Positions 56,204 to 64,000 of a stretch of 64,000 nucleotides of DNA are shown in pieces (the first letter of the stretch is position 1; each line of letters begins with the position of its first letter). The position numbers and the translations under genes are program-made. This stretch comes from a virus, in the IMG/VR virus record IMGVR_UViG_3300042566_000678, positions 84,236 to 148,235 of that record. The stretch is one strand, 5' to 3'. The notes under the pieces are model-generated. The model had not been told where the DNA came from and made no database searches. It worked only from the letters and a program-made list of their open reading frames with translations.

Positions 56204-56352
56204 CTGTGGGGGCAGGATTCGAACCTGCAAAGGGAGATTCAGTAAGTAACACTTATGCCGGCCGGCTGGTGGTCTACCCCATATCACTTACCTATTTCTT
56301 TATCCCCGCCGTAGAGACGGTACGGTATGGCTGCCAATTTCACCACCCCACA
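56204..56352 (-). ncRNA. Oversized tRNA-like RNA, about 149 nt
   Basis: A 7-bp acceptor-type helix (TGTGGGG at 56346-56352 with CCCCACA at 56205-56211) and a perfect T arm (GCAGG-TTCGAAT-CCTGC) are present, and the first 25 nt match a tRNA-Leu D arm (GGTGAAATTGGCAGCC). The best anticodon-like hairpin (CCGTA-CCGTCTC-TACGG) has C, not U, at position 33. About 60 extra nt, themselves foldable (GTAAGT/ACTTAC, GCCGGCCGGC), sit between it and the T arm. Either a tRNA with a giant variable arm or insertion, or a tRNA mimic. Confidence 0.6.
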
Positions 56353-56551: not shown

Positions 56552-56579
56552 ACCTATAAATATCAATTTATATTAAATG

Positions 56580-56669
56580 TAGAGGATAGCGGATTCGAAC
56601 CGCTGGTAGGGTATTACCCCCACGACAGTTTAGCAAACTGCTGGTTTAAGCCAACTCACCCAACCCTCT
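56580..56669 (-). tRNA. tRNA-Ser(GCU)
   Basis: Acceptor AGAGGGT/ATCCTCT, anticodon loop TTGCTAA, T loop TTCGAAT, long variable arm (type II). N73 is A; CCA not encoded. Confidence 0.88.
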
Positions 56670-56672
56670 ATT

Positions 56673-56747
56673 TGGTAGCCCCACCAAGACTCGAACTTGG
56701 AAATTCGCTTTAGAAGAGCGACGGTATATCCCTTTACCTATGGGGCC
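56673..56747 (-). tRNA. tRNA-Arg(UCU)
   Basis: Acceptor GGCCCCA/TGGGGCT, anticodon loop CTTCTAA, T arm CCAAG-TTCGAGT-CTTGG; A73 and CCA encoded. Confidence 0.92.
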
Positions 56748-56753
56748 AGATTT

Positions 56754-56826
56754 GAACTAACTCACTGGAAACCTTATAGTTGAATTTAATCAACTTATGG
56801 GTTAAGCACTCCTTTTATGTTAGTTC
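56754..56826 (-). ncRNA. Closed spacer RNA S1
   Basis: Ends pair as GAACTAAC/GTTAGTTC (8 bp); an inner hairpin AGTTGA/TCAACT and a helix AACC/GGTT are visible. It fills most of the gap between tRNA-Arg and tRNA-Ser. No T loop and no ORF. Confidence 0.5.
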
Positions 56827-56843
56827 CTCGTGCTCCAAGTGTG

Positions 56844-56929
56844 AGGAGAGTGAGGGATTCGAACCCCCGGCCCTGTTACAGGCTACGGTTTTCAAGACCG
56901 TCGCGATAGACCAACTCTGCCAACTCTCC
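56844..56929 (-). tRNA. tRNA-Ser(UGA)
   Basis: Acceptor GGAGAGT/ACTCTCC, anticodon loop CTTGAAA, T loop TTCGAAT, type II variable arm. N73 reads U; CCA not encoded. Confidence 0.88.
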
Positions 56930-56935
56930 TTTTTA

Positions 56936-57283
56936 CTATATTTGTTCTGATGCTAAAGTATCCGATTCTATTTTGATTGGTGGATATTTCTTACGGATTT
57001 CTAATGAATCTTCCAATGCCCACTTTTGTTTAAGTTTGGCACGTTTCTCCATATTTTTAAGTTGTTCTTTTTTCTTTATAATATCTTTCGATAATTTTTC
57101 TATACGAACATACTTACTTGCATAATCCTCATCGGTTGCATCAACCCATTGAATTTTTCTTTGTAATTCTTTGATTTCAGTTTTTATTGTTTCAACCAAA
57201 GGTGCTTCATCACTAAACTTTGGGTCAATTGAACCACCCAATGTGTTGAATAAAAGCATAATAGACATTCCTAATTCTTTCAT
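56936..57283 (-). CDS. Coiled-coil protein between tRNA genes
   Basis: 115 aa. A short hydrophobic N-terminus (MKELGMSIMLLFNTLGG) could be a weak signal or membrane anchor; residues 30-95 are a continuous Lys/Glu-rich helix. No family recognised. It lies between tRNA-Ser and tRNA-Gln, transcribed with them. Confidence 0.6.
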   Translation of the reverse strand: MKELGMSIMLLFNTLGGSIDPKFSDEAPLVETIKTEIKELQRKIQWVDATDEDYASKYVRIEKLSKDIIKKKEQLKNMEKRAKLKQKWALEDSLEIRKKYPPIKIESDTLASEQI

Positions 57284-57300
57284 AATATTTTTATTTAATG

Positions 57301-57371
57301 TTACCCGAGCAGGATTCGAACCTACCCTAACTGCACCAAAAACAGTTGTGCTACCGCTACACCATCGAGCA
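57301..57371 (-). tRNA. tRNA-Gln(UUG)
   Basis: Acceptor TGCTCGA/TCGGGTA with G.U pairs, anticodon loop TTTTGGT, T arm GTAGG-TTCGAAT-CCTGC, A73. Confidence 0.88.
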
Positions 57372-57376
57372 ATTCG

Positions 57377-57450
57377 CAGTTCGTACGGGATTCGAACCCG
57401 TGGTCTCTTCCGTGACAGGGAAGCATGTTGGGCCTCTACACCAACGAACT
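57377..57450 (-). tRNA. tRNA-Asp(GUC)
   Basis: Acceptor AGTTCGT/ACGAACT, anticodon stem CTTCC/GGAAG with loop CTGTCAC, T arm ACGGG-TTCGAAT-CCCGT, G73 as expected for Asp. Confidence 0.92.
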
Positions 57451-57455
57451 AAATT

Positions 57456-57639
57456 AAAACAAACTTTTTGTGTCCTTTTACACATCATAACCATTTTATT
57501 GGTGGTTACATTTTCACGTTGGGTTAATTACTCCCTGCTTATAGTAACTCTCTCCTGACCTGTATGACTATTCCGGCTTCAACAGGACCATTTTAGATTT
57601 TATATACCATGGGGTTACACCATAGTCTTCGTTTGTTTT
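57456..57639 (-). ncRNA. Closed spacer RNA S2, 184 nt
   Basis: Ends pair as AAAACAAAC/GTTTGTTTT (9 bp). Inner hairpins: TGTGT/ACACA (57469-57484), TAACCA/TGGTTA (57488-57508), CCTGT/ACAGG (57559-57586), ATGG/CCAT (57609-57623). It fills the whole gap between tRNA-Asp and tRNA-Thr and holds no convincing ORF. Confidence 0.55.
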
Positions 57640-57640
57640 G

Positions 57641-57713
57641 AGCTTCCAATCGGAATCGAACCAATAACCTACGCATTACAAGTGCGTTGCTCTACCAATT
57701 GAGCTATGGAAGC
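57641..57713 (-). tRNA. tRNA-Thr(UGU)
   Basis: Acceptor GCTTCCA/TGGAAGC, anticodon stem ACGCA/TGCGT with loop CTTGTAA, T loop TTCGATT. Confidence 0.93.
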
Positions 57714-57718
57714 AAATT

Positions 57719-57901
57719 ATGTATCAGTTCCATACCGGCCTATTAGGAACTATTAGGGTTTCTCGGACGAGGTGCACAACCCAATCGGCTATAATGTGTT
57801 ATCAGTTACTTGGTTTCCACCATAAGGAATTAGTAAATGGGGTTCGAACCCACCTCATTGAATGTATGCCTACATCAACTTTCACTGCACATTTGATACA
57901 T
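57719..57901 (-). ncRNA. Closed spacer RNA S5 with a tRNA-like T arm, 183 nt
   Basis: Ends pair as ATGTATCA/TGATACAT (8 bp) and abut tRNA-Thr and tRNA-Glu. Inside is a T-arm-like hairpin (GTGGG-TTCGAAC-CCCAT) whose neighbours do not form an acceptor stem, and further hairpins including GGGTT/AACCC around CTCG/CGAG. Possibly a degenerate tRNA absorbed in a larger RNA. Confidence 0.5.
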
Positions 57902-57903
57902 TG

Positions 57904-57977
57904 TACTCCGTACGGGACTCGAACCCGTAAGCTTCCACGTGAAAGGCGGATGTCCTAACCAATTAGACGAACGGAGC
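57904..57977 (-). tRNA. tRNA-Glu(UUC)
   Basis: Acceptor GCTCCGT/ACGGAGT, anticodon stem TCCGC/GTGGA with loop CTTTCAC, T arm ACGGG-TTCGAGT-CCCGT, A73. It starts 6 bp after a promoter -7 box. Confidence 0.92.
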
Positions 57978-57982
57978 ATTTA

Positions 57983-58013
57983 CAAATATAAGTATTTAAT
58001 TTCATAATTCCAA
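57983..58013 (-). promoter_or_regulatory. Promoter inside the tRNA array, TTGGAA-N17-TATATTTG
   Basis: TATATTTG 57983-57990 and TTGGAA 58008-58013; transcription would begin at about the 5' end of tRNA-Glu. Confidence 0.75.
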
Positions 58014-58032
58014 ACTTTATCGGAATTATTTT

Positions 58033-58116
58033 TGGTGAGAGTAGAAGGACTCGAACCTCCGAACTCGTAGAGAGCTGATTTACAGTCAGCCGCAATTGCC
58101 ACTATGCGATACTCCC
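58033..58116 (-). tRNA. tRNA-Tyr(GUA), copy 1
   Basis: Acceptor GGGAGTA/TACTCTC, anticodon stem GCTGA/TCAGC with loop CTGTAAA, long variable arm, T loop TTCGAGT; A73 and CCA encoded. Confidence 0.92.
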
Positions 58117-58121
58117 AATTG

Positions 58122-58193
58122 AGCAGGTAGTCAGATTCGAACTGACGTCTCCGGTTTGGAAGACCAGAGCACTAACCTCTGTGCTATACCTGC
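58122..58193 (-). tRNA. tRNA-Gly(UCC)
   Basis: Acceptor GCAGGTA/TACCTGC, anticodon loop CTTCCAA, T arm GTCAG-TTCGAAT-CTGAC. N73 is U. Confidence 0.92.
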
Positions 58194-58201
58194 TTATTTC
58201 C

Positions 58202-58413
58202 CCACATTGAGATTACTTGTGAGTAGTTATTTCGGTTTTTTCTTCTGTTCCAAAAACCTGCGAGGCATCCCTCATAAAAACAGTCAACACTACTGGGAGG
58301 AGGTGTGTCACTCTCCTTTATTCCCACGAAGTCCCACTCGCGCCGTAGACTTTCTGCGGAATCATTCTTTAAGTCTTGATTCGAAGACTTTGAGTATCTC
58401 TTACTCATTGTGG
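58202..58413 (-). ncRNA. Closed spacer RNA S8, about 210 nt
   Basis: Ends pair as CCACATTGAG/CTCATTGTGG (9 of 10), touching tRNA-Met. Inner hairpins: GAGG/CCTC (58262-58273), CCGTAG/CTGCGG (58343-58359), AAGTCTT/AAGACTT (58371-58390). A 74-codon ORF (58184-58408, MSKRYSKSSNQDLKND) overlaps it and also runs into tRNA-Gly; the RNA explanation is preferred. Confidence 0.5.
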
Positions 58414-58484
58414 ACCAGGTAGGAATCGAACCTACTACCTTTTGATTATGAGTCAACTGCTCTAACCGAGTGAGCTACAAGTCC
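58411..58484 (-). tRNA. tRNA-Met(CAU), copy 1
   Basis: Acceptor GGACTTG/CTGGTCC (one mismatch), anticodon loop CTCATAA, T arm GTAGG-TTCGATT-CCTAC, A73. Could be elongator Met or an Ile tRNA with modified C34. Confidence 0.88.
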
Positions 58485-58491
58485 AATAAGG

Positions 58492-58600
58492 TGCCGGTGG
58501 AGAGATTGGTTACTCACACGATGTCCTTTTCGGTTACACCACCATACTAGTATAGGTACGTCTAATGGTTGTACTTCCCATTCGTTCCGCCACACCGGCA
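58492..58600 (-). ncRNA. Closed spacer RNA S9, acceptor-like ends, 109 nt
   Basis: Ends pair as TGCCGGTG/CACCGGCA (8 bp), and the first bases (GCCGGTGTGGCGGAAC) look exactly like the start of a tRNA-Leu. No TTCRA T loop, no clear anticodon hairpin. A palindrome ATACTAGTAT and GTAC/GTAC pairing lie inside. Either a decayed tRNA or a tRNA mimic. Confidence 0.5.
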
Positions 58601-58607
58601 TATTTCT

Positions 58608-58715
58608 TTTGTAATGTCTGTACGGTTTGTGTCTTATCTACTCCTTTATACGAGCTTCAAAAGTTTCCATTTCATACATAGCGTCCGTTCCGTCATTCTT
58701 TCGAATCATTACAAA
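58608..58715 (-). ncRNA. Closed spacer RNA S3, 108 nt
   Basis: Ends pair as TTTGTAATG/CATTACAAA (9 bp). It abuts tRNA-Ala and leaves 7 bp to S9. Inner complementarity ACGG/CCGT. No ORF. Confidence 0.5.
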
Positions 58716-58716
58716 G

Positions 58717-58790
58717 TGGAGAATGTGGGATTCGAACCCACGACCTCTTGAATGCAAATCAAGCGTTCTAGCCAACTGAACTAAATCCCC
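58717..58790 (-). tRNA. tRNA-Ala(UGC)
   Basis: Acceptor GGGGATT/ATTCTCC (one mismatch), anticodon stem CTTGA/TCAAG with loop TTTGCAT, T arm GTGGG-TTCGAAT-CCCAC, A73. Confidence 0.92.
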
Positions 58791-58793
58791 ATT

Positions 58794-58901
58794 AAAGATA
58801 GCTTATGATGTTCACATTTTCCATCATAAGAAGAAACGACCAGTCAAGTTGTGAATCTTACTTTACGTTGCCTGCAACAGGTGCATCTTACTTCTATCTT
58901 T
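58794..58901 (-). ncRNA. Closed spacer RNA S4, 108 nt
   Basis: Ends pair as AAAGATAG/CTATCTTT (8 bp) and abut tRNA-Ala and tRNA-Leu. A second perfect 9-bp helix (CTTATGATG/CATCATAAG, 58802-58830) stacks directly on the closing stem; CCTG/CAGG forms a further hairpin. ATCTTACTT is repeated inside. Confidence 0.6.
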
Positions 58902-58902
58902 G

Positions 58903-58985
58903 TACTCGAAGAGGGACTTGAACCCACACGCCCATACGGACAAAACATTTTAAGTGTTTCTTGTCTACCATTCCAACATTCGAGC
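58903..58985 (-). tRNA. tRNA-Leu(UAA)
   Basis: Acceptor GCTCGAA/TTCGAGT, anticodon stem AAACA/TGTTT with loop CTTAAAA, type II variable arm, T loop TTCAAGT, A73. Confidence 0.9.
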
Positions 58986-59002
58986 AACTTATTTTAGTAT
59001 TA

Positions 59003-59033
59003 CAAATATAATAAAAATATTTTATATATCCAA
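59003..59033 (-). promoter_or_regulatory. Promoter of the left tRNA block, TTGGAT-N17-TATATTTG
   Basis: TATATTTG 59003-59010 and TTGGAT 59028-59033, 18 bp upstream of tRNA-Leu(UAA), directly after the surface lipoprotein gene. Confidence 0.75.
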
Positions 59034-59034
59034 A

Positions 59035-61218
59035 TTATTCTACATATTTTGTCCAACTATCTACATTAAAACATCCTCCACAATCGGATTTTTTTTGTAA
59101 TAATTTTTGAACGCTTTGAACTCTAATTTCCGATAAATTTGGATTGTTATAAGTATATAATCTATCTATAAAAATAGATGGTAATCCTTTAATGTTTAAA
59201 TATCTTAAATTATTATTCCAAACTAAAAACCAACTTAAAAGTGGATTTTTTGTACAATCCAATGATTCAATTTTATTATCATGCACCCAAAGTCCTTTAA
59301 GCATTGGGTTGCCACTCAAATTTAAAGCTGTCAATCTGTTATTTTGCATATACAATTGTTGCAGGTTTGGATTGTGAGTTATATCAATTGATGTTACACC
59401 TCTGGTTGTTCCGTATCCAGTTCTACCTTCTGTATTACCAAAATCCAATTCAGTTAAATTTGGATTTCTAGAAACATCAAATGTTACAATATCATTATCC
59501 CCTGCACCAAAGTATTGTAATTTTGATAATGAACTTACATCAATACTTGTCAATTTATTATCCCAAAGTGAAACCCAAGTCAGATTAGTATTTTTGGATA
59601 AATCAACACTACTAATTTCATTGTGAATAATTCTTAACCTTTGTAGATTAGGGAATGCCTCTATACCTCTGATACTTACAATACCCATAGGATTTAGGAT
59701 TTCTATGGTAGTTGCGTTTGCAATTGGTGCAGTTTTAATCCGCCCATCCAAAACAAAATCATATCCCCTATCTATTAGTGCTTGCTCAAATCTACTATCT
59801 GGCACACTCATATACTCCGGCAATGCCGATAGAGATGGTGGTGGAGTTGTTACAATTGGACCAGGTACAAATGGTGTAGATGGTGATGATGCCGTTGGTG
59901 GGGTAGGTACTATTGGTGCTACATATACCGGTGGTGGTGTATCATCCAATGTTCTGAAATTGCGTTCATCACCATATACTATACCCTTTGAGTTTATACA
60001 ATATGCTCTAATATAGTAGGTTGAATTTGGTATTAATTCATTTACATCTACCATATATCCACCCAAACCTTTCCCATATATAAGTTTTCTATCTGAAATT
60101 GTAGGTGTTTTTTCTCTACTAATAACCACACCCTTTTCAGTTACAGGTGTATTACCTTCATTTGTAACCTCACCACCAATTCTTGCACTCTTAAATGAAA
60201 TATTCCCAATATCGTTGGTAGATATTTTAGCAAATGTATAATCTAATGTTGAAAAATTGATTTCATCACCATATACAATACCCGCTTCATTTTGAGCGTA
60301 TGCTCTTACATAGTATTTAGTATTTACCTCCAATTTAGTAACTACTATTTTATATTCACCCAAGTCTGTGACTGATGATTTGAACTTTAAATCCTCCACC
60401 GATGGTTTTGGTGATTTAGATACAACTACACCACGTTCTTTCAATTCTCCCCTACCCAAATCTTTTACATTACCACTTAATGTTACCACATCTAATCCAA
60501 CATCCGTTGCAGGATTTGTTTGGATTGTAGGTAGTTTATACTCTAATGTTGAAAATGAAAGTTCTTTACCATACGATGTACCCATAGCATTTGTAGCAAA
60601 GGCACGGACATTGTACTTTGTTCCTGCTTTTAGTTTGATTACAACTAAATTGAATACACCCATACCATCACCTGTATTGAATGTACTATCGGTAGTTGTA
60701 GGTGTTTGGTTGGTACTAATGCAAAATCCTCGCTTTAATATAGGTGTTTCACCATCATCTGTAATATTACCATATAGTTTTACCGATGTTAGAGTTATAT
60801 TACCCAAACTATCGGTTGTTAAAGTTGGTAGTATATAATCACCAGTTGTAAAATTCTTTAATTGACCATATGCAATACCATATTTGTTTTTGGCGTATGC
60901 ATTATAGTAATAGGTTTTATTTGGTGTTAGTTTGGTTAGTTGTGATTTAAATATTGTAACATTTGTATCCAATTTAATGGTAGTACCATATCCACCAACA
61001 TCTGGATTAGTTGCGTAAATAAATCCACGTTCAATTGTAGGTGCATAGGGTACATCTTCTACTTTACCTACAATAAATGCTGATTTAAGTGTAACATTGG
61101 TTGCATCCTCTGTTAATACAGATGGTGGTAAATCAATAATCGTTGGTGTTAGTGCTTCTTCCTTTGCACACCCTAATAATAGGAAAATACCTATTAGACT
61201 GATTTGTAACTTTTTCAT
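59035..61218 (-). CDS. Surface lipoprotein with four FN3-like repeats and leucine-rich repeats
   Basis: 727 aa. Lipobox LLLGC (Cys17). Residues about 30-415 are four tandem repeats of some 90 aa, each ending in the same motif: YGIAYGQLKNFTT, MGTSYGKELSFST, AGIVYGDEINFST, KGIVYGDERNFRT. After a Pro-rich linker (about 425-465) the C-terminal 250 residues are leucine-rich repeats (SVDLSKNTNLTWVSLWDNKL, TELDFGN, LTALNLSGNPML). Two Cys close to the end (DCGGC). This is the design of surface adhesins. It lies inside the tRNA array with its own promoter (61243). Confidence 0.82.
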   Translation of the reverse strand: MKKLQISLIGIFLLLGCAKEEALTPTIIDLPPSVLTEDATNVTLKSAFIVGKVEDVPYAPTIERGFIYATNPDVGGYGTTIKLDTNVTIFKSQLTKLTPNKTYYYNAYAKNKYGIAYGQLKNFTTGDYILPTLTTDSLGNITLTSVKLYGNITDDGETPILKRGFCISTNQTPTTTDSTFNTGDGMGVFNLVVIKLKAGTKYNVRAFATNAMGTSYGKELSFSTLEYKLPTIQTNPATDVGLDVVTLSGNVKDLGRGELKERGVVVSKSPKPSVEDLKFKSSVTDLGEYKIVVTKLEVNTKYYVRAYAQNEAGIVYGDEINFSTLDYTFAKISTNDIGNISFKSARIGGEVTNEGNTPVTEKGVVISREKTPTISDRKLIYGKGLGGYMVDVNELIPNSTYYIRAYCINSKGIVYGDERNFRTLDDTPPPVYVAPIVPTPPTASSPSTPFVPGPIVTTPPPSLSALPEYMSVPDSRFEQALIDRGYDFVLDGRIKTAPIANATTIEILNPMGIVSIRGIEAFPNLQRLRIIHNEISSVDLSKNTNLTWVSLWDNKLTSIDVSSLSKLQYFGAGDNDIVTFDVSRNPNLTELDFGNTEGRTGYGTTRGVTSIDITHNPNLQQLYMQNNRLTALNLSGNPMLKGLWVHDNKIESLDCTKNPLLSWFLVWNNNLRYLNIKGLPSIFIDRLYTYNNPNLSEIRVQSVQKLLQKKSDCGGCFNVDSWTKYVE

Positions 61219-61242
61219 ATTTTACTTTTAGATTTTATGAAA

Positions 61243-61273
61243 CAAATATACAACATTTATTTCACAATTCCTA
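61243..61273 (-). promoter_or_regulatory. Promoter, TAGGAA-N17-TATATTTG
   Basis: TATATTTG 61243-61250 and TAGGAA 61268-61273, 25 bp upstream of the surface lipoprotein start. Confidence 0.7.
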
Positions 61274-61289
61274 ATTTTTTTAATAAAAG

Positions 61290-61359
61290 TTGCGTGTTCG
61301 GGGTTCGAACCCAATTGGCTTTCCTTATGAGAGATAGCTATTTTCCACTAATCCACGCA
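61290..61359 (-). tRNA. tRNA-Met/Ile(CAU), copy 2
   Basis: Acceptor TGCGTGG/ACACGCA (one mismatch), anticodon loop CTCATAA on an imperfect stem, T arm TTGGG-TTCGAAC-CCCGA, A73. Initiator or Ile2 identity cannot be settled by eye. Confidence 0.8.
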
Positions 61360-61362
61360 ATC

Positions 61363-61436
61363 TGGTGTGATTGAAGGGAATCGAACCCTTATTGAATGCA
61401 CCACAAACATTTGTCCTACCATTAGACGACAATCAC
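61363..61436 (-). tRNA. tRNA-His(GUG)
   Basis: Acceptor GTGATTG/CAATCAC preceded by G-1 at 61437, anticodon loop TTGTGGT, T arm AAGGG-TTCGATT-CCCTT; CCA encoded. Confidence 0.92.
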
Positions 61437-61438
61437 CG

Positions 61439-61509
61439 AGGTGAATATTGGATTTGAACCAATGTAAATGGTTTTGCAGACCACCCCCTCGCCTCTCGGG
61501 CAATTCACC
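61439..61509 (-). tRNA. tRNA-Cys(GCA)
   Basis: Acceptor GGTGAAT/ATTCACC, anticodon loop CTGCAAA, T arm ATTGG-TTCAAAT-CCAAT; N73 is U as in bacterial tRNA-Cys. Confidence 0.93.
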
Positions 61510-61514
61510 TTATG

Positions 61515-61586
61515 TAGTTCCATAGAGACTCGAACTCCAACTTTGACATCCGTAGTGTCAGGTGCTATCCATTACACCATAGAACC
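61515..61586 (-). tRNA. tRNA-Arg(ACG)
   Basis: Acceptor GGTTCTA/TGGAACT, anticodon stem TGACA/TGTCA with loop CTACGGA, T loop TTCGAGT, A73. Needs A-to-I editing of A34 for full use. Confidence 0.92.
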
Positions 61587-61591
61587 AATTG

Positions 61592-61662
61592 CACACCCAC
61601 TAGGATTCGAACCCAGAACAACGGAGTTGGAGTCCGTTATGATACCATTTCACCATAGATGC
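61592..61662 (-). tRNA. tRNA-Trp(CCA)
   Basis: Acceptor GCATCTA/TGGGTGT with G.U pairs, anticodon stem ACGGA/TCCGT with loop CTCCAAC, T arm CTGGG-TTCGAAT-CCTAG, G73. Confidence 0.92.
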
Positions 61663-61668
61663 GTATTT

Positions 61669-61732
61669 ACTTTCCAACTGAAAAAATTACCTCCAAAAAA
61701 TTTTTGGACCTTTACCCAAAAGTTGAAAAAGT
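61669..61732 (-). ncRNA. Closed spacer RNA S7, 64 nt
   Basis: Ends pair as ACTTT-CAACT with AGTTG-AAAGT (10 pairs around a small internal loop); inside is the self-complementary CCAAAAAATTTTTGG. Abuts tRNA-Trp. Confidence 0.45.
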
Positions 61733-61740
61733 GTAGGAAT

Positions 61741-61812
61741 AATACGAACATCCCCCCGTAGTGGATTCAAACCACATTTTTTTCTCGTCTGGAACGGGGG
61801 ATAATTCGTATT
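61741..61812 (-). ncRNA. Minimal tRNA-like hairpin S6 (long acceptor helix plus T arm)
   Basis: Ends pair as AATACGAA/TTCGTATT (8 bp) and continue, after a 2/1-nt internal loop, as ATCCCCC/GGGGGAT (7 bp). On the 3' side a T-arm-like hairpin GTGG-TTTGAAT-CCAC follows. There is no room for D and anticodon arms; the remaining bases form a linker with seven A. It directly precedes tRNA-Trp's spacer and abuts tRNA-Ile. It looks like a tRNA minihelix. Confidence 0.6.
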
Positions 61813-61813
61813 G

Positions 61814-61887
61814 TAGGAATAATAGGAATCGAACCTATAACCGCTGACGTATCAGGTCAGTGCTCTAACCAATTGAGCTATATTCCT
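61814..61887 (-). tRNA. tRNA-Ile(GAU)
   Basis: Acceptor AGGAATA/TATTCCT, anticodon stem CTGAC/GTCAG with loop CTGATAC, T arm ATAGG-TTCGATT-CCTAT, A73. Confidence 0.93.
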
Positions 61888-61890
61888 ATG

Positions 61891-61963
61891 TAGAGTAGGC
61901 AGGACTCGAACCTGCAACCTCACGCACCCAAAACGTGTAATCTAGCCATTGATATACTACTCT
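61891..61963 (-). tRNA. tRNA-Pro(UGG)
   Basis: Acceptor AGAGTAG/CTACTCT, anticodon loop TTTGGGT, T arm GCAGG-TTCGAGT-CCTGC, A73. Confidence 0.93.
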
Positions 61964-61969
61964 ATATTG

Positions 61970-62042
61970 TGAACCCGTTGGGAATCGAACCCAAAACCCC
62001 TACATTAAAAGTGTAGTGCTCTACCAATTGAGCTACGAGTTC
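61970..62042 (-). tRNA. tRNA-Lys(UUU)
   Basis: Acceptor GAACTCG/CGGGTTC, anticodon stem CTACA/TGTAG with loop CTTTTAA, T arm TTGGG-TTCGATT-CCCAA, A73. Confidence 0.93.
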
Positions 62043-62045
62043 TTG

Positions 62046-62122
62046 TGGTGGAACCTGTGGAAATCGAATCACACTCCTTTGGTTTTTCAGACCAACGTAC
62101 GCACCAGCTATACCAAAGTTCC
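62046..62122 (-). tRNA. tRNA-Phe(GAA)
   Basis: Acceptor GGAACTT/AGGTTCC, anticodon stem TTGGT/ACCAA with loop CTGAAAA, T loop TTCGATT on a stem that needs one bulged base; CCA encoded. Confidence 0.88.
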
Positions 62123-62127
62123 AATTG

Positions 62128-62210
62128 TGGGAGTTGATGGATTCGAACCACCTACCCATGCAGGTTACCAGATTTACAGTCTAGCGCTTAACCAATTCAG
62201 CCTAACTCCC
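62128..62210 (-). tRNA. tRNA-Tyr(GUA), copy 2
   Basis: Acceptor GGGAGTT/AACTCCC, anticodon loop CTGTAAA, long variable arm, T loop TTCGAAT, A73. A second tRNA-Tyr distinct in sequence from the copy at 58033. Confidence 0.88.
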
Positions 62211-62252
62211 CGTTCAAATCCGATTTTGATATGTAGCATCGGGAACTACCTG

Positions 62253-62325
62253 TACTCTCGATAGGATTCGAACCTATAAAACCCGGTGTCTAAAACCGGT
62301 GACTTTACCTTTTGTCCACAAGAGT
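62253..62325 (-). tRNA. tRNA with UAG anticodon, short variable loop (Leu codon CUA/CUG)
   Basis: Acceptor ACTCTTG/CGAGAGT, anticodon stem CCGGT/ACCGG with loop TTTAGAC, T arm ATAGG-TTCGAAT-CCTAT, A73. The anticodon is that of Leu, but the variable loop has only about 5 nt whereas tRNA-Leu is normally type II; the D arm (GGACAAAAGGTAAAGTC) and anticodon stem look like tRNA-Gln. Confidence 0.75.
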
Positions 62326-62337
62326 ATTTGTTGTAGT

Positions 62338-62856
62338 TTATTCATAACCCCTGTAATTTCTTAAATAAACATTTCTTTTATTATATTTTCTTTGAGAGTT
62401 ACCATTGTTTTTACTACCATAATTTTCAGTTTGTGAATGGCAATTTGGACAAAGTAATCTTAAATTATTCAAATTGTTATTATCAGAATTACCATCTATA
62501 TGGTCTAATTGTAATGTTAGTGGTCTACCATTCCATTCAGCTGATATTCCACAATCAAAACATTCATTTTTCACACTATCTTTTAGATACCTTTTAAGTG
62601 CAAAATTATTAGTAGATGTACCATTTAATATTTTTGGTAAACTTATTGTTTTACTTTTATATTCCGCACAGCATTTTGAATTACAATATTGTTTTACATA
62701 GTTATTTAATTCAGCATCACAATTTTTACATTTAGGTTTTGTTCTTCCACTTGTCCTTTTAGGATATACTTTATTGTTATATTTAGCAGCACAGCTATTT
62801 GAACAAAACTTTCTATTTTTTGGTATATCAATACCACATTCATTACATTTATTCAT
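62338..62856 (-). CDS. HNH homing-type endonuclease
   Basis: 172 aa. Two N-terminal zinc-finger-like units (NKCNECG with FCSNSCAAKYN; PKCKNCD with YCNSKCCAEY) are followed by an intact HNH domain: ECFDCG, LQLDHIDGNSDNNNL and LRLLCPNCHSQT. The basic tail (SQRKYNKRNVYLRNY) may contact DNA. Free-standing HNH nucleases in phage tRNA regions are known selfish elements that cut tRNA-less relatives. Lies between tRNA(UAG) and tRNA-Val. Confidence 0.92.
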   Translation of the reverse strand: MNKCNECGIDIPKNRKFCSNSCAAKYNNKVYPKRTSGRTKPKCKNCDAELNNYVKQYCNSKCCAEYKSKTISLPKILNGTSTNNFALKRYLKDSVKNECFDCGISAEWNGRPLTLQLDHIDGNSDNNNLNNLRLLCPNCHSQTENYGSKNNGNSQRKYNKRNVYLRNYRGYE

Positions 62857-62882
62857 TTTCGAACTATTTAGTGTTATACCTA

Positions 62883-62913
62883 TAAATATACACTTATATA
62901 TTCAAACAACAAT
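62883..62913 (-). promoter_or_regulatory. Possible promoter, ATTGTT-N17-TATATTTA
   Basis: TATATTTA 62883-62890 with TTG near 62908-62913; 27 bp upstream of the HNH start. The 14 bp ATATTTATAGGTAT just downstream is also found before the gene at 56551. Confidence 0.45.
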
Positions 62914-62920
62914 TTTATTG

Positions 62921-62994
62921 TGATGGGTACAGGATTTGAACCTGTAAACCTCTTGGATGTAAGCCAAGCGCTCTACCAATTGAGCTAACCCACC
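62921..62994 (-). tRNA. tRNA-Val(UAC)
   Basis: Acceptor GGTGGGT/ACCCATC, anticodon stem CTTGG/CCAAG with loop CTTACAT, T arm ACAGG-TTCAAAT-CCTGT, A73. Confidence 0.93.
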
Positions 62995-63026
62995 ATTTCA
63001 CCATTATGTCAAAGAACTTATTCTTG

Positions 63027-63098
63027 CGTTGGTAATAGGACTCGAACCTATAATCTTCCGGTTAACAGCCGGGCGCTTCACCATTAAGCTATACCAAC
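63027..63098 (-). tRNA. tRNA-Asn(GUU)
   Basis: Acceptor GTTGGTA/TACCAAC, anticodon loop CTGTTAA, T arm ATAGG-TTCGAGT-CCTAT, G73. It begins 5 bp after a terminator. Confidence 0.92.
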
Positions 63099-63133
63099 AA
63101 AAAAACCCCTAACTTTTTTACAAGTCAGGGGTT
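63097..63133 (-). terminator. Rho-independent terminator
   Basis: AACCCCT/AGGGGTT plus ACTT/AAGT (63104-63133) and seven T on the minus strand. It ends the 47-aa gene and precedes tRNA-Asn. Confidence 0.9.
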
Positions 63134-63160
63134 GTTTTAATTTAAGTATGTAGTTTGGTT

Positions 63161-63304
63161 TTATCCCAAGTCTACATCATTTAATATTGTTACCCCTAAC
63201 TGTGTTTTAATTCCTTTCGAACTAAAATCACACACGCGATTGCCTACCCATGCCAAAGTTGACATCGGTTGATAAGTAATCGTATGTAGGTTAAGAGTTT
63301 TCAT
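63161..63304 (-). CDS. Small 47-aa protein inside the tRNA array
   Basis: ATG 63304: MKTLNLHTITYQPMSTLAWV, GNRVCDFSSKG and GVTILNDVDLG. Mixed composition with one Cys, no TM segment. It has an AT-rich leader (63305-63360) with no clear consensus promoter, and a strong terminator after the stop. Being a terminated single gene supports that it is real. Function unknown. Confidence 0.6.
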   Translation of the reverse strand: MKTLNLHTITYQPMSTLAWVGNRVCDFSSKGIKTQLGVTILNDVDLG

Positions 63305-63361
63305 TTCTTTATTTATAATAATATATATGTAATTTTTTTATTTTTAATTAAATTATTTTAG

Positions 63362-63432
63362 AGCGGTGGGATGGAATTGAACCACCTCATCCGACCTGGA
63401 CGGCCGGTATGCTACCGTAACACTTCCACCGC
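63362..63432 (-). tRNA. tRNA-Gly(UCC)-like, altered anticodon loop
   Basis: Acceptor GCGGTGG/CCACCGC, anticodon stem CCGGC/GTCGG with loop CGTCCAG, T arm GGTGG-TTCAATT-CCATC. Position 33 is G instead of the near-universal U, and C32 could pair with G38. Possibly non-functional in translation. Confidence 0.7.
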
Positions 63433-63509: not shown

Positions 63510-64000
63510 TATATTATTACGGATGAGAATACTCACGTAAAAGAACCAGCTTTCGTTGGATTATTGTTTCCCAACTTTTCCACTACCTTTTGGGTAGTAC
63601 CGATTCAATGCGGGTTGGTTAAGCCAACCACTCATAAAGTTACAAACTACTCTCTCTTTACTCCGCTTCTTCTACTCTGCCGAACAGATTCACACTTGCG
63701 GTGTTAGAAGTTTTTCGAAAGAATCACAGACCTCTTGCGGAGGTATCGTGGCAAGGAACAACTCCCTACTATGTACGCACCTTTCGTTTGCAACTGACGA
63801 ACACTTTTGCTCTTTTTGTTTATAGTTTGCACTAACAGGCAAATTGAGTTTGGTTCGTAGATGGTTTCAAGTAGTGGTTCGCCAACCTGCTTCGTTACCT
63901 TTTGAGCAACAAAATACTGAACTACTCGATGTGTTATCCCTAACACCATACTTTAAGTTTGCTTCATAACTCCTACCTTGGTAGGTGAAGAGTAAGGATA
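63510..64000 (-). ncRNA. Large ornate structured RNA, continues beyond window
   Basis: No convincing ORF in 490 nt, higher GC than the surroundings, and a dense series of short hairpins: TGAG/CTCA 63524-63535, GTTGG/CCAAC 63555-63575, ACTACC/GGTAGT 63582-63598, GGTTGG/CCAACC 63613-63629, CTTCTA/TAGAAG 63669-63710 enclosing ACAC/GTGT 63692-63704, ACCTC/GAGGT 63730-63744, TTCGT/ACGAA 63783-63801, TTTGC/GCAAA 63826-63843, GGTT/AACC 63876-63887, GTGTTA/TAACAC 63931-63946, CCTAC/GTAGG 63972-63985. Two loops are CGCAA on the minus strand. Size, structure and tRNA neighbourhood recall GOLLD/ROOL-type phage RNAs; identity is unproved. Strand is assumed from the adjacent tRNAs. Confidence 0.65.

Follow-up and report, generated by a model that had tools for sequence, protein, structure and literature searches.

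The long spacers between the tRNA genes of this phage are very probably small RNA genes, or 'cassettes', embedded in a polycistronic tRNA transcript, from which they would be released as stable RNAs once the tRNAs are cut out. We analysed the terminal 64 kb of a virus record of 148,235 bases (the window), in which ARAGORN places 25 tRNAs at 56579..63432, every one of them on the minus strand. In an Rfam search of the window, gathering scores were reached only by tRNAs and by a GOLLD RNA (63520..63929, minus strand; RF02032, 295.2 bits) at the upstream end of the array, and no Rfam match was obtained inside any spacer module, up to E=5. All gaps of 25-300 nt in the window were folded, the borders of the spacers being the tRNA ends given by ARAGORN. 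Relatives, collected via neighbouring proteins and DNA patterns, are mostly incomplete contigs from uncultured viruses. The nearest named relative by its polymerase is Microcystis phage Mel-JY01 (49.5%), which has just one tRNA near its polymerase gene.

An earlier note on this DNA had proposed that every long spacer of the array is closed by a helix formed from its own ends. Its coordinates are correct, and the array lies on the minus strand. The terminal helix was confirmed in seven of the nine spacers named, that is in S1 (GAACTAAC/GTTAGTTC), S2 (AAAACAAAC/GTTTGTTTT), S5 (ATGTATCA/TGATACAT), S9 (TGCCGGTG/CACCGGCA), S3 (TTGTAATG/CATTACAA), S4 (AAAGATAG/CTATCTTT) and S6 (AATACGAA/TTCGTATT), and had to be withdrawn for S7 and S8. 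S8 (58194..58409, minus strand) is structured, and bases 58410-58413 of its claimed stem form the 3' end of tRNA-Met, so that forming this stem would put it in competition with the tRNA. The first 18 nt of S8 fold into a local hairpin, which relatives keep paired by compensatory change (ATGAGTA..TACTCA versus ACGAGTA..TACTCG). The closing stem of S7 (61669..61732, minus strand) is particular to this phage, as its 3' strand, AGTTGGAAAGT, is missing in four relatives (L018, L062, L063 and L065), in which the 5' strand pairs locally as a hairpin. Nor does the rule extend to every spacer, since 57978-58032 is promoter-like and no closing stem is present at 62211-62251 or 62995-63025.

We then asked how far chance accounts for such helices. 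The earlier reader had picked module ends freely, as can be seen from S6 and S7, and likewise S3 and S9, sharing a single gap, and from S1 beginning 16 nt past tRNA-Ser(UGA). A naive shuffle test on whole gaps gave p<0.05 for S2, S4 and S5 only, and missed modules because one gap can hold two of them. Because of this free choice of ends, we adopted a fixed geometry, with the 5' strand 0-3 nt past a tRNA and the 3' strand 2-7 nt before the next tRNA. From 61 loci of related viral contigs that carry such an array we took the spacers of 40-300 nt, clustered them to drop homologues, with the independence of the clusters judged by blastn alone, and tested one member per cluster against dinucleotide shuffles, whose p-values cannot fall below about 1/500 to 1/2000. 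A closing helix at p<0.01 was found in 11 of 48 non-homologous clusters where 0.5 would be expected (binomial 1.6e-12), in a set that is not a random sample because its loci were partly gathered with the S3 and S9 patterns; three displaced control geometries gave 0, 0 and 1 clusters. The replication sets therefore matter. A closing helix was present in 4 of 17 new clusters from new relatives (2e-5) and in 4 of 28 gaps from unrelated named phages (Lak-C1, Cellulophaga phi17:2 and two huge phages). Around three quarters of the spacer families have no terminal helix under the fixed geometry. The effect is thus genuine and reaches beyond this phage, though it is not universal.

The best documented module is S3 (58607..58716, minus strand), an RNA family without Rfam match that lies directly after tRNA-Ala and consists of the closing stem P1, a hairpin P2 with a GNAA tetraloop, P3 and a variable P4. 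It was found by pattern in 29 viral contigs, each time on the same strand as the tRNA beside it. Its covariance model R1 scores 132.6 bits on the copy in the window and gives 37 matches in the fetched loci, some of which are duplicate loci of one contig; it has no match in the T5 region. In an alignment of 25 sequences, 98% of the cells are paired and 8 pairs, distributed over P1, P2 and P3, have changed on both sides; none of 500 shuffles matches this. The covariance-model alignment is biased to its own structure, and an independent MAFFT alignment agrees for P1 and P3; moreover, RNAalifold recovers the same fold unaided from the first S3 alignment. The search pattern contained part of P2 and P3, and the P2 variants that retain the GNAA loop come from loci found outside this pattern (L048, L119, L121 and L124). 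In the window it follows tRNA-Ala; other phages carry it after Leu, and elsewhere it comes after Ser or Glu.

S2 (57456..57639, minus strand), with 184 nt, nine helices and a closing stem formed by 57631-57639 and 57456-57464, is likewise an RNA family without Rfam match. RNAalifold predicts 49 pairs, of which 12 are compensated, two of these in the closing stem, and none of 500 shuffles matches this. S1 (56754..56826, minus strand) is present in six further contigs, its outer pair varying between G-C, G-U and A-U among homologues, and copies in three contigs are 96-99% identical. A hairpin motif, GGAGTNNTTAACC, is common to the otherwise different S1 and S2; in the 1.77 Mb of fetched sequence, all of its 40 occurrences fall within S1 or S2, and it may bind a common partner of the two. 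Two further modules have few or no relatives. S4 (58794..58901, minus strand) lies flush with tRNA-Leu(UAA) and gives p=0.001 in the fixed-geometry test, and no homologue was found among the collected relatives. S5 (57719..57901, minus strand), which holds a T-arm-like hairpin, gives p=0.0025 and has a single homologue, 88% identical and with the same stem. By blastn, S1, S2, S3 and S9 have no match among 50,697 phage records and find no named phage, and the S3 and S9 patterns match none of 84,980 bacterial and archaeal genomes. We found no description of these RNA families in the literature, and no protein partner or target of the modules.

A second group of modules resembles tRNA. S9 (58492..58600, minus strand) has an 8-bp acceptor-like closing stem followed by CC, a D-loop with an inserted hairpin, and an 8-nt T-loop, UAACCAAY. 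Its acceptor-like stem and T stem covary, with compensation (alignment A2), and by eye the sequence of the D-loop hairpin differs between phages yet stays pairable. S9 is thus an RNA resembling tRNA-Leu in which the elbow is altered. The loop at its anticodon position is mostly a short palindrome built around CTAG or TCGA, and might serve as a kissing dimer site. S6 (61741..61812, minus strand) is minihelix-like, with an inner stem CCCCCGU/ACGGGGG inside the outer one and a T-arm-like hairpin, GUGG-UUUGAAU-CCAC. It has homologues in L080, L095 and L117, and in the last of these the entire inner helix is swapped for ACCGGGT/ACCCGGT. The last 9 bases of the tRNA-Ile 3' end (61813-61821) are copied after S6 at 61733-61741 (TATTCCTAC), perhaps as the scar of a cassette insertion. 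X1 (56205..56352, minus strand; 148 nt) is tRNA-Leu-like in sequence and fold with an enlarged middle, to be compared with T5 RNA1; it has no ARAGORN call, and parts of it are conserved in many relatives. X2 (61290-61360) is a tRNA-like gene with the anticodon loop CTCATAA (CAU) and a mismatched anticodon stem, again without ARAGORN call and conserved in relatives. Taken together, the closing stems of S1, S2, S3 and S9 show compensatory changes, as does the inner stem of S6, and the proposed alternation of tRNAs with closed RNA domains draws support from the geometry and from covariation in four families.

The acceptor-stem or T-arm-like parts of S9, S6 and X1 raise the question of whether the spacers are simply decaying tRNA genes that retained an acceptor stem by descent. 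This seems to us very unlikely, because the altered T-loop and the D-loop hairpin of S9 are conserved and compensated across phages. Compared with tRNA, S9 also has no standard anticodon arm; ARAGORN and the tRNA covariance model make no tRNA call within any S module, S1, S2 and S3 included, and RF00005 does not match S9 or S6 even at E=5. For S9, S6 and X1 themselves, a decayed-tRNA origin may apply.

The distribution of the modules among phages bears on two further readings. At the Glu-Thr junction, some phages have 4 nt, while others carry S5 or one of several unrelated modules. The modules thus behave as cassettes, the same junction being empty or occupied by unrelated modules, phage by phage. 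They are also exchanged horizontally, since the S1 copies of the window and L035 share 97% identity despite polymerase genes that are only 72% identical. The earlier note had considered that spacers could be scaffolds helping tRNA maturation, in which case they would be passive supports or insulators for tRNA folding and processing and the closing stems alone would matter. The stems do abut the tRNA ends. However, sister phages keep the same tRNA pair (Glu-Thr) with only the 4-nt gap, and the interiors of S3 and S2 are strongly conserved, with compensated helices of their own, beyond what a scaffold needs, which makes this role very improbable. Alternatively, the closing stems could be terminal inverted repeats of mobile DNA elements. 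Modules indeed appear, vanish and shift between junctions, and the tRNA-Ile copy after S6 would fit an insertion; but the ends are unrelated between modules, the stems are compensated, the internal RNA structure is conserved, and S3 is present in one copy per genome in 12 of 12 positive records (13 searched), always on the strand of the array. We therefore give this alternative very little credence; the same ends, several copies and both orientations of a transposable element with terminal inverted repeats were not found. Finally, that the spacers encode small peptides, given open frames in S3 of this phage (MIRKNDGTDAMYEMETFEARIKE) and in S8, can practically be dismissed, as most S3 homologues have no start codon, length changes break the frame, and neither the S3 nor the S8 peptide has a PHROGs match; S3 was accordingly rejected as coding.

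Two sites may serve as promoters of the array. A promoter-like sequence of the Bacteroidota type, TTG-N20-TAnnTTTG, lies at 57983..58013 (minus strand) in the unclosed Tyr>Glu spacer and is found in 17 of the 24 members of that spacer cluster. A second such site (59003..59033, minus strand) is located in the long gap upstream of tRNA-Leu(UAA)-S4-Ala-S3-S9-Met, and these are the only two minus-strand sequences of this type in the array. In relatives, a phage tmRNA is predicted upstream of GOLLD and the array (L063:6776-7162, L018:511-898 and L033:2309-2709), with a conserved tag that is unusually long, e.g. ANVELSTMTFEDAMAWMNSFDYAVAA; the record of the window stops before the corresponding position. 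Between the predicted tmRNA and GOLLD, L063:7163-7510 contains repeats of about 60 nt at a spacing of about 140 nt; a promoter-like block of about 40 nt is common to them and to the region upstream of tRNA-Leu(UAA). An HNH endonuclease gene (62338-62856) is inserted between tRNA-Val and tRNA-Leu, and in relatives ORFs of similar length occupy other junctions.

The nearest known kind is that of the stable RNAs of the T5 and T4 tRNA clusters, by position and architecture and not by homology. The RNAs of T5 and T4 share no homology with each other either, so that lack of homology bears on family and not on kind. As in those phages, the modules lie within a phage tRNA cluster and on its strand. 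In T5, RNAI, RNAIII, RNAIV, RNA1, RNA2, RNA2H and RNA3, of 73-172 nt, are located between tRNA genes. When the annotated ends are used, six of these seven close on their own termini (p 0.001-0.043), with helices of 12 bp (RNAIII), 10 bp (RNA2H), 8 bp (RNAIV and RNA2), 6 bp (RNA3) and 5 bp (RNAI). Some are annotated as tRNA-like. In contrast to T5, the modules described here belong to families that span many phages, covary and are exchanged as cassettes. The earlier note's comparison with RNAs C and D of T4 is apt in context, both being small RNAs of a tRNA cluster, with RNA D beginning 1 nt past tRNA-Arg and RNA C having a T-arm-like hairpin; T5 is closer, as neither C nor D has a long terminal closing helix (0/2), and we saw no family relationship. 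RNAC and RNAD are described as late RNAs of unknown function (PMC9697503). GOLLD, a phage RNA found near tRNA islands and also of unknown function (PMC12286853), shares the array, but it is far larger and its structure is unrelated to that of the spacer modules.

We propose the following scenario for the cassettes. The array would be transcribed from the Bacteroidota-type promoters. From established tRNA biology, the upstream tRNA would then be cut at its 3' end by RNase Z and exonucleases and the downstream one at its 5' end by RNase P, so that excision of the tRNAs would also free each spacer. Because the module ends pair flush with the tRNA cuts, the released RNA of 70-190 nt would have no long single-stranded tail and should persist as a stable RNA. 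The conserved interiors suggest that the modules function in trans. Quick turnover of cassettes at fixed junctions suggests an interaction with variable host factors, conceivably tRNA-directed defences; this last point is a reasonable but weak guess, made because rapid exchange at fixed sites is reminiscent of arms-race genes. Phage tRNAs are reported to counter tRNA-cutting defences (PMC11555353, PMC10264068). More speculatively, one could imagine the array as an arsenal of structured RNAs that act in trans. Each would be matured by the tRNA-processing enzymes, would neutralise or mimic a particular host factor such as a tRNA-cutting defence enzyme, and could be passed from phage to phage like a gene cassette.

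The stable RNAs of the T4 and T5 tRNA clusters have been annotated without function, and this old puzzle could become testable. Several RNA families of the same kind now have comparative structure evidence and cassette-like exchange, and covariance models for annotation are at hand together with candidate motifs. Culturable phages are open to experiment, namely T5 and Cellulophaga phage phi17:2, the latter having spacers that show the same feature. Across families, one architectural rule is shared: the ends of the RNA are sealed flush with the tRNA cuts.
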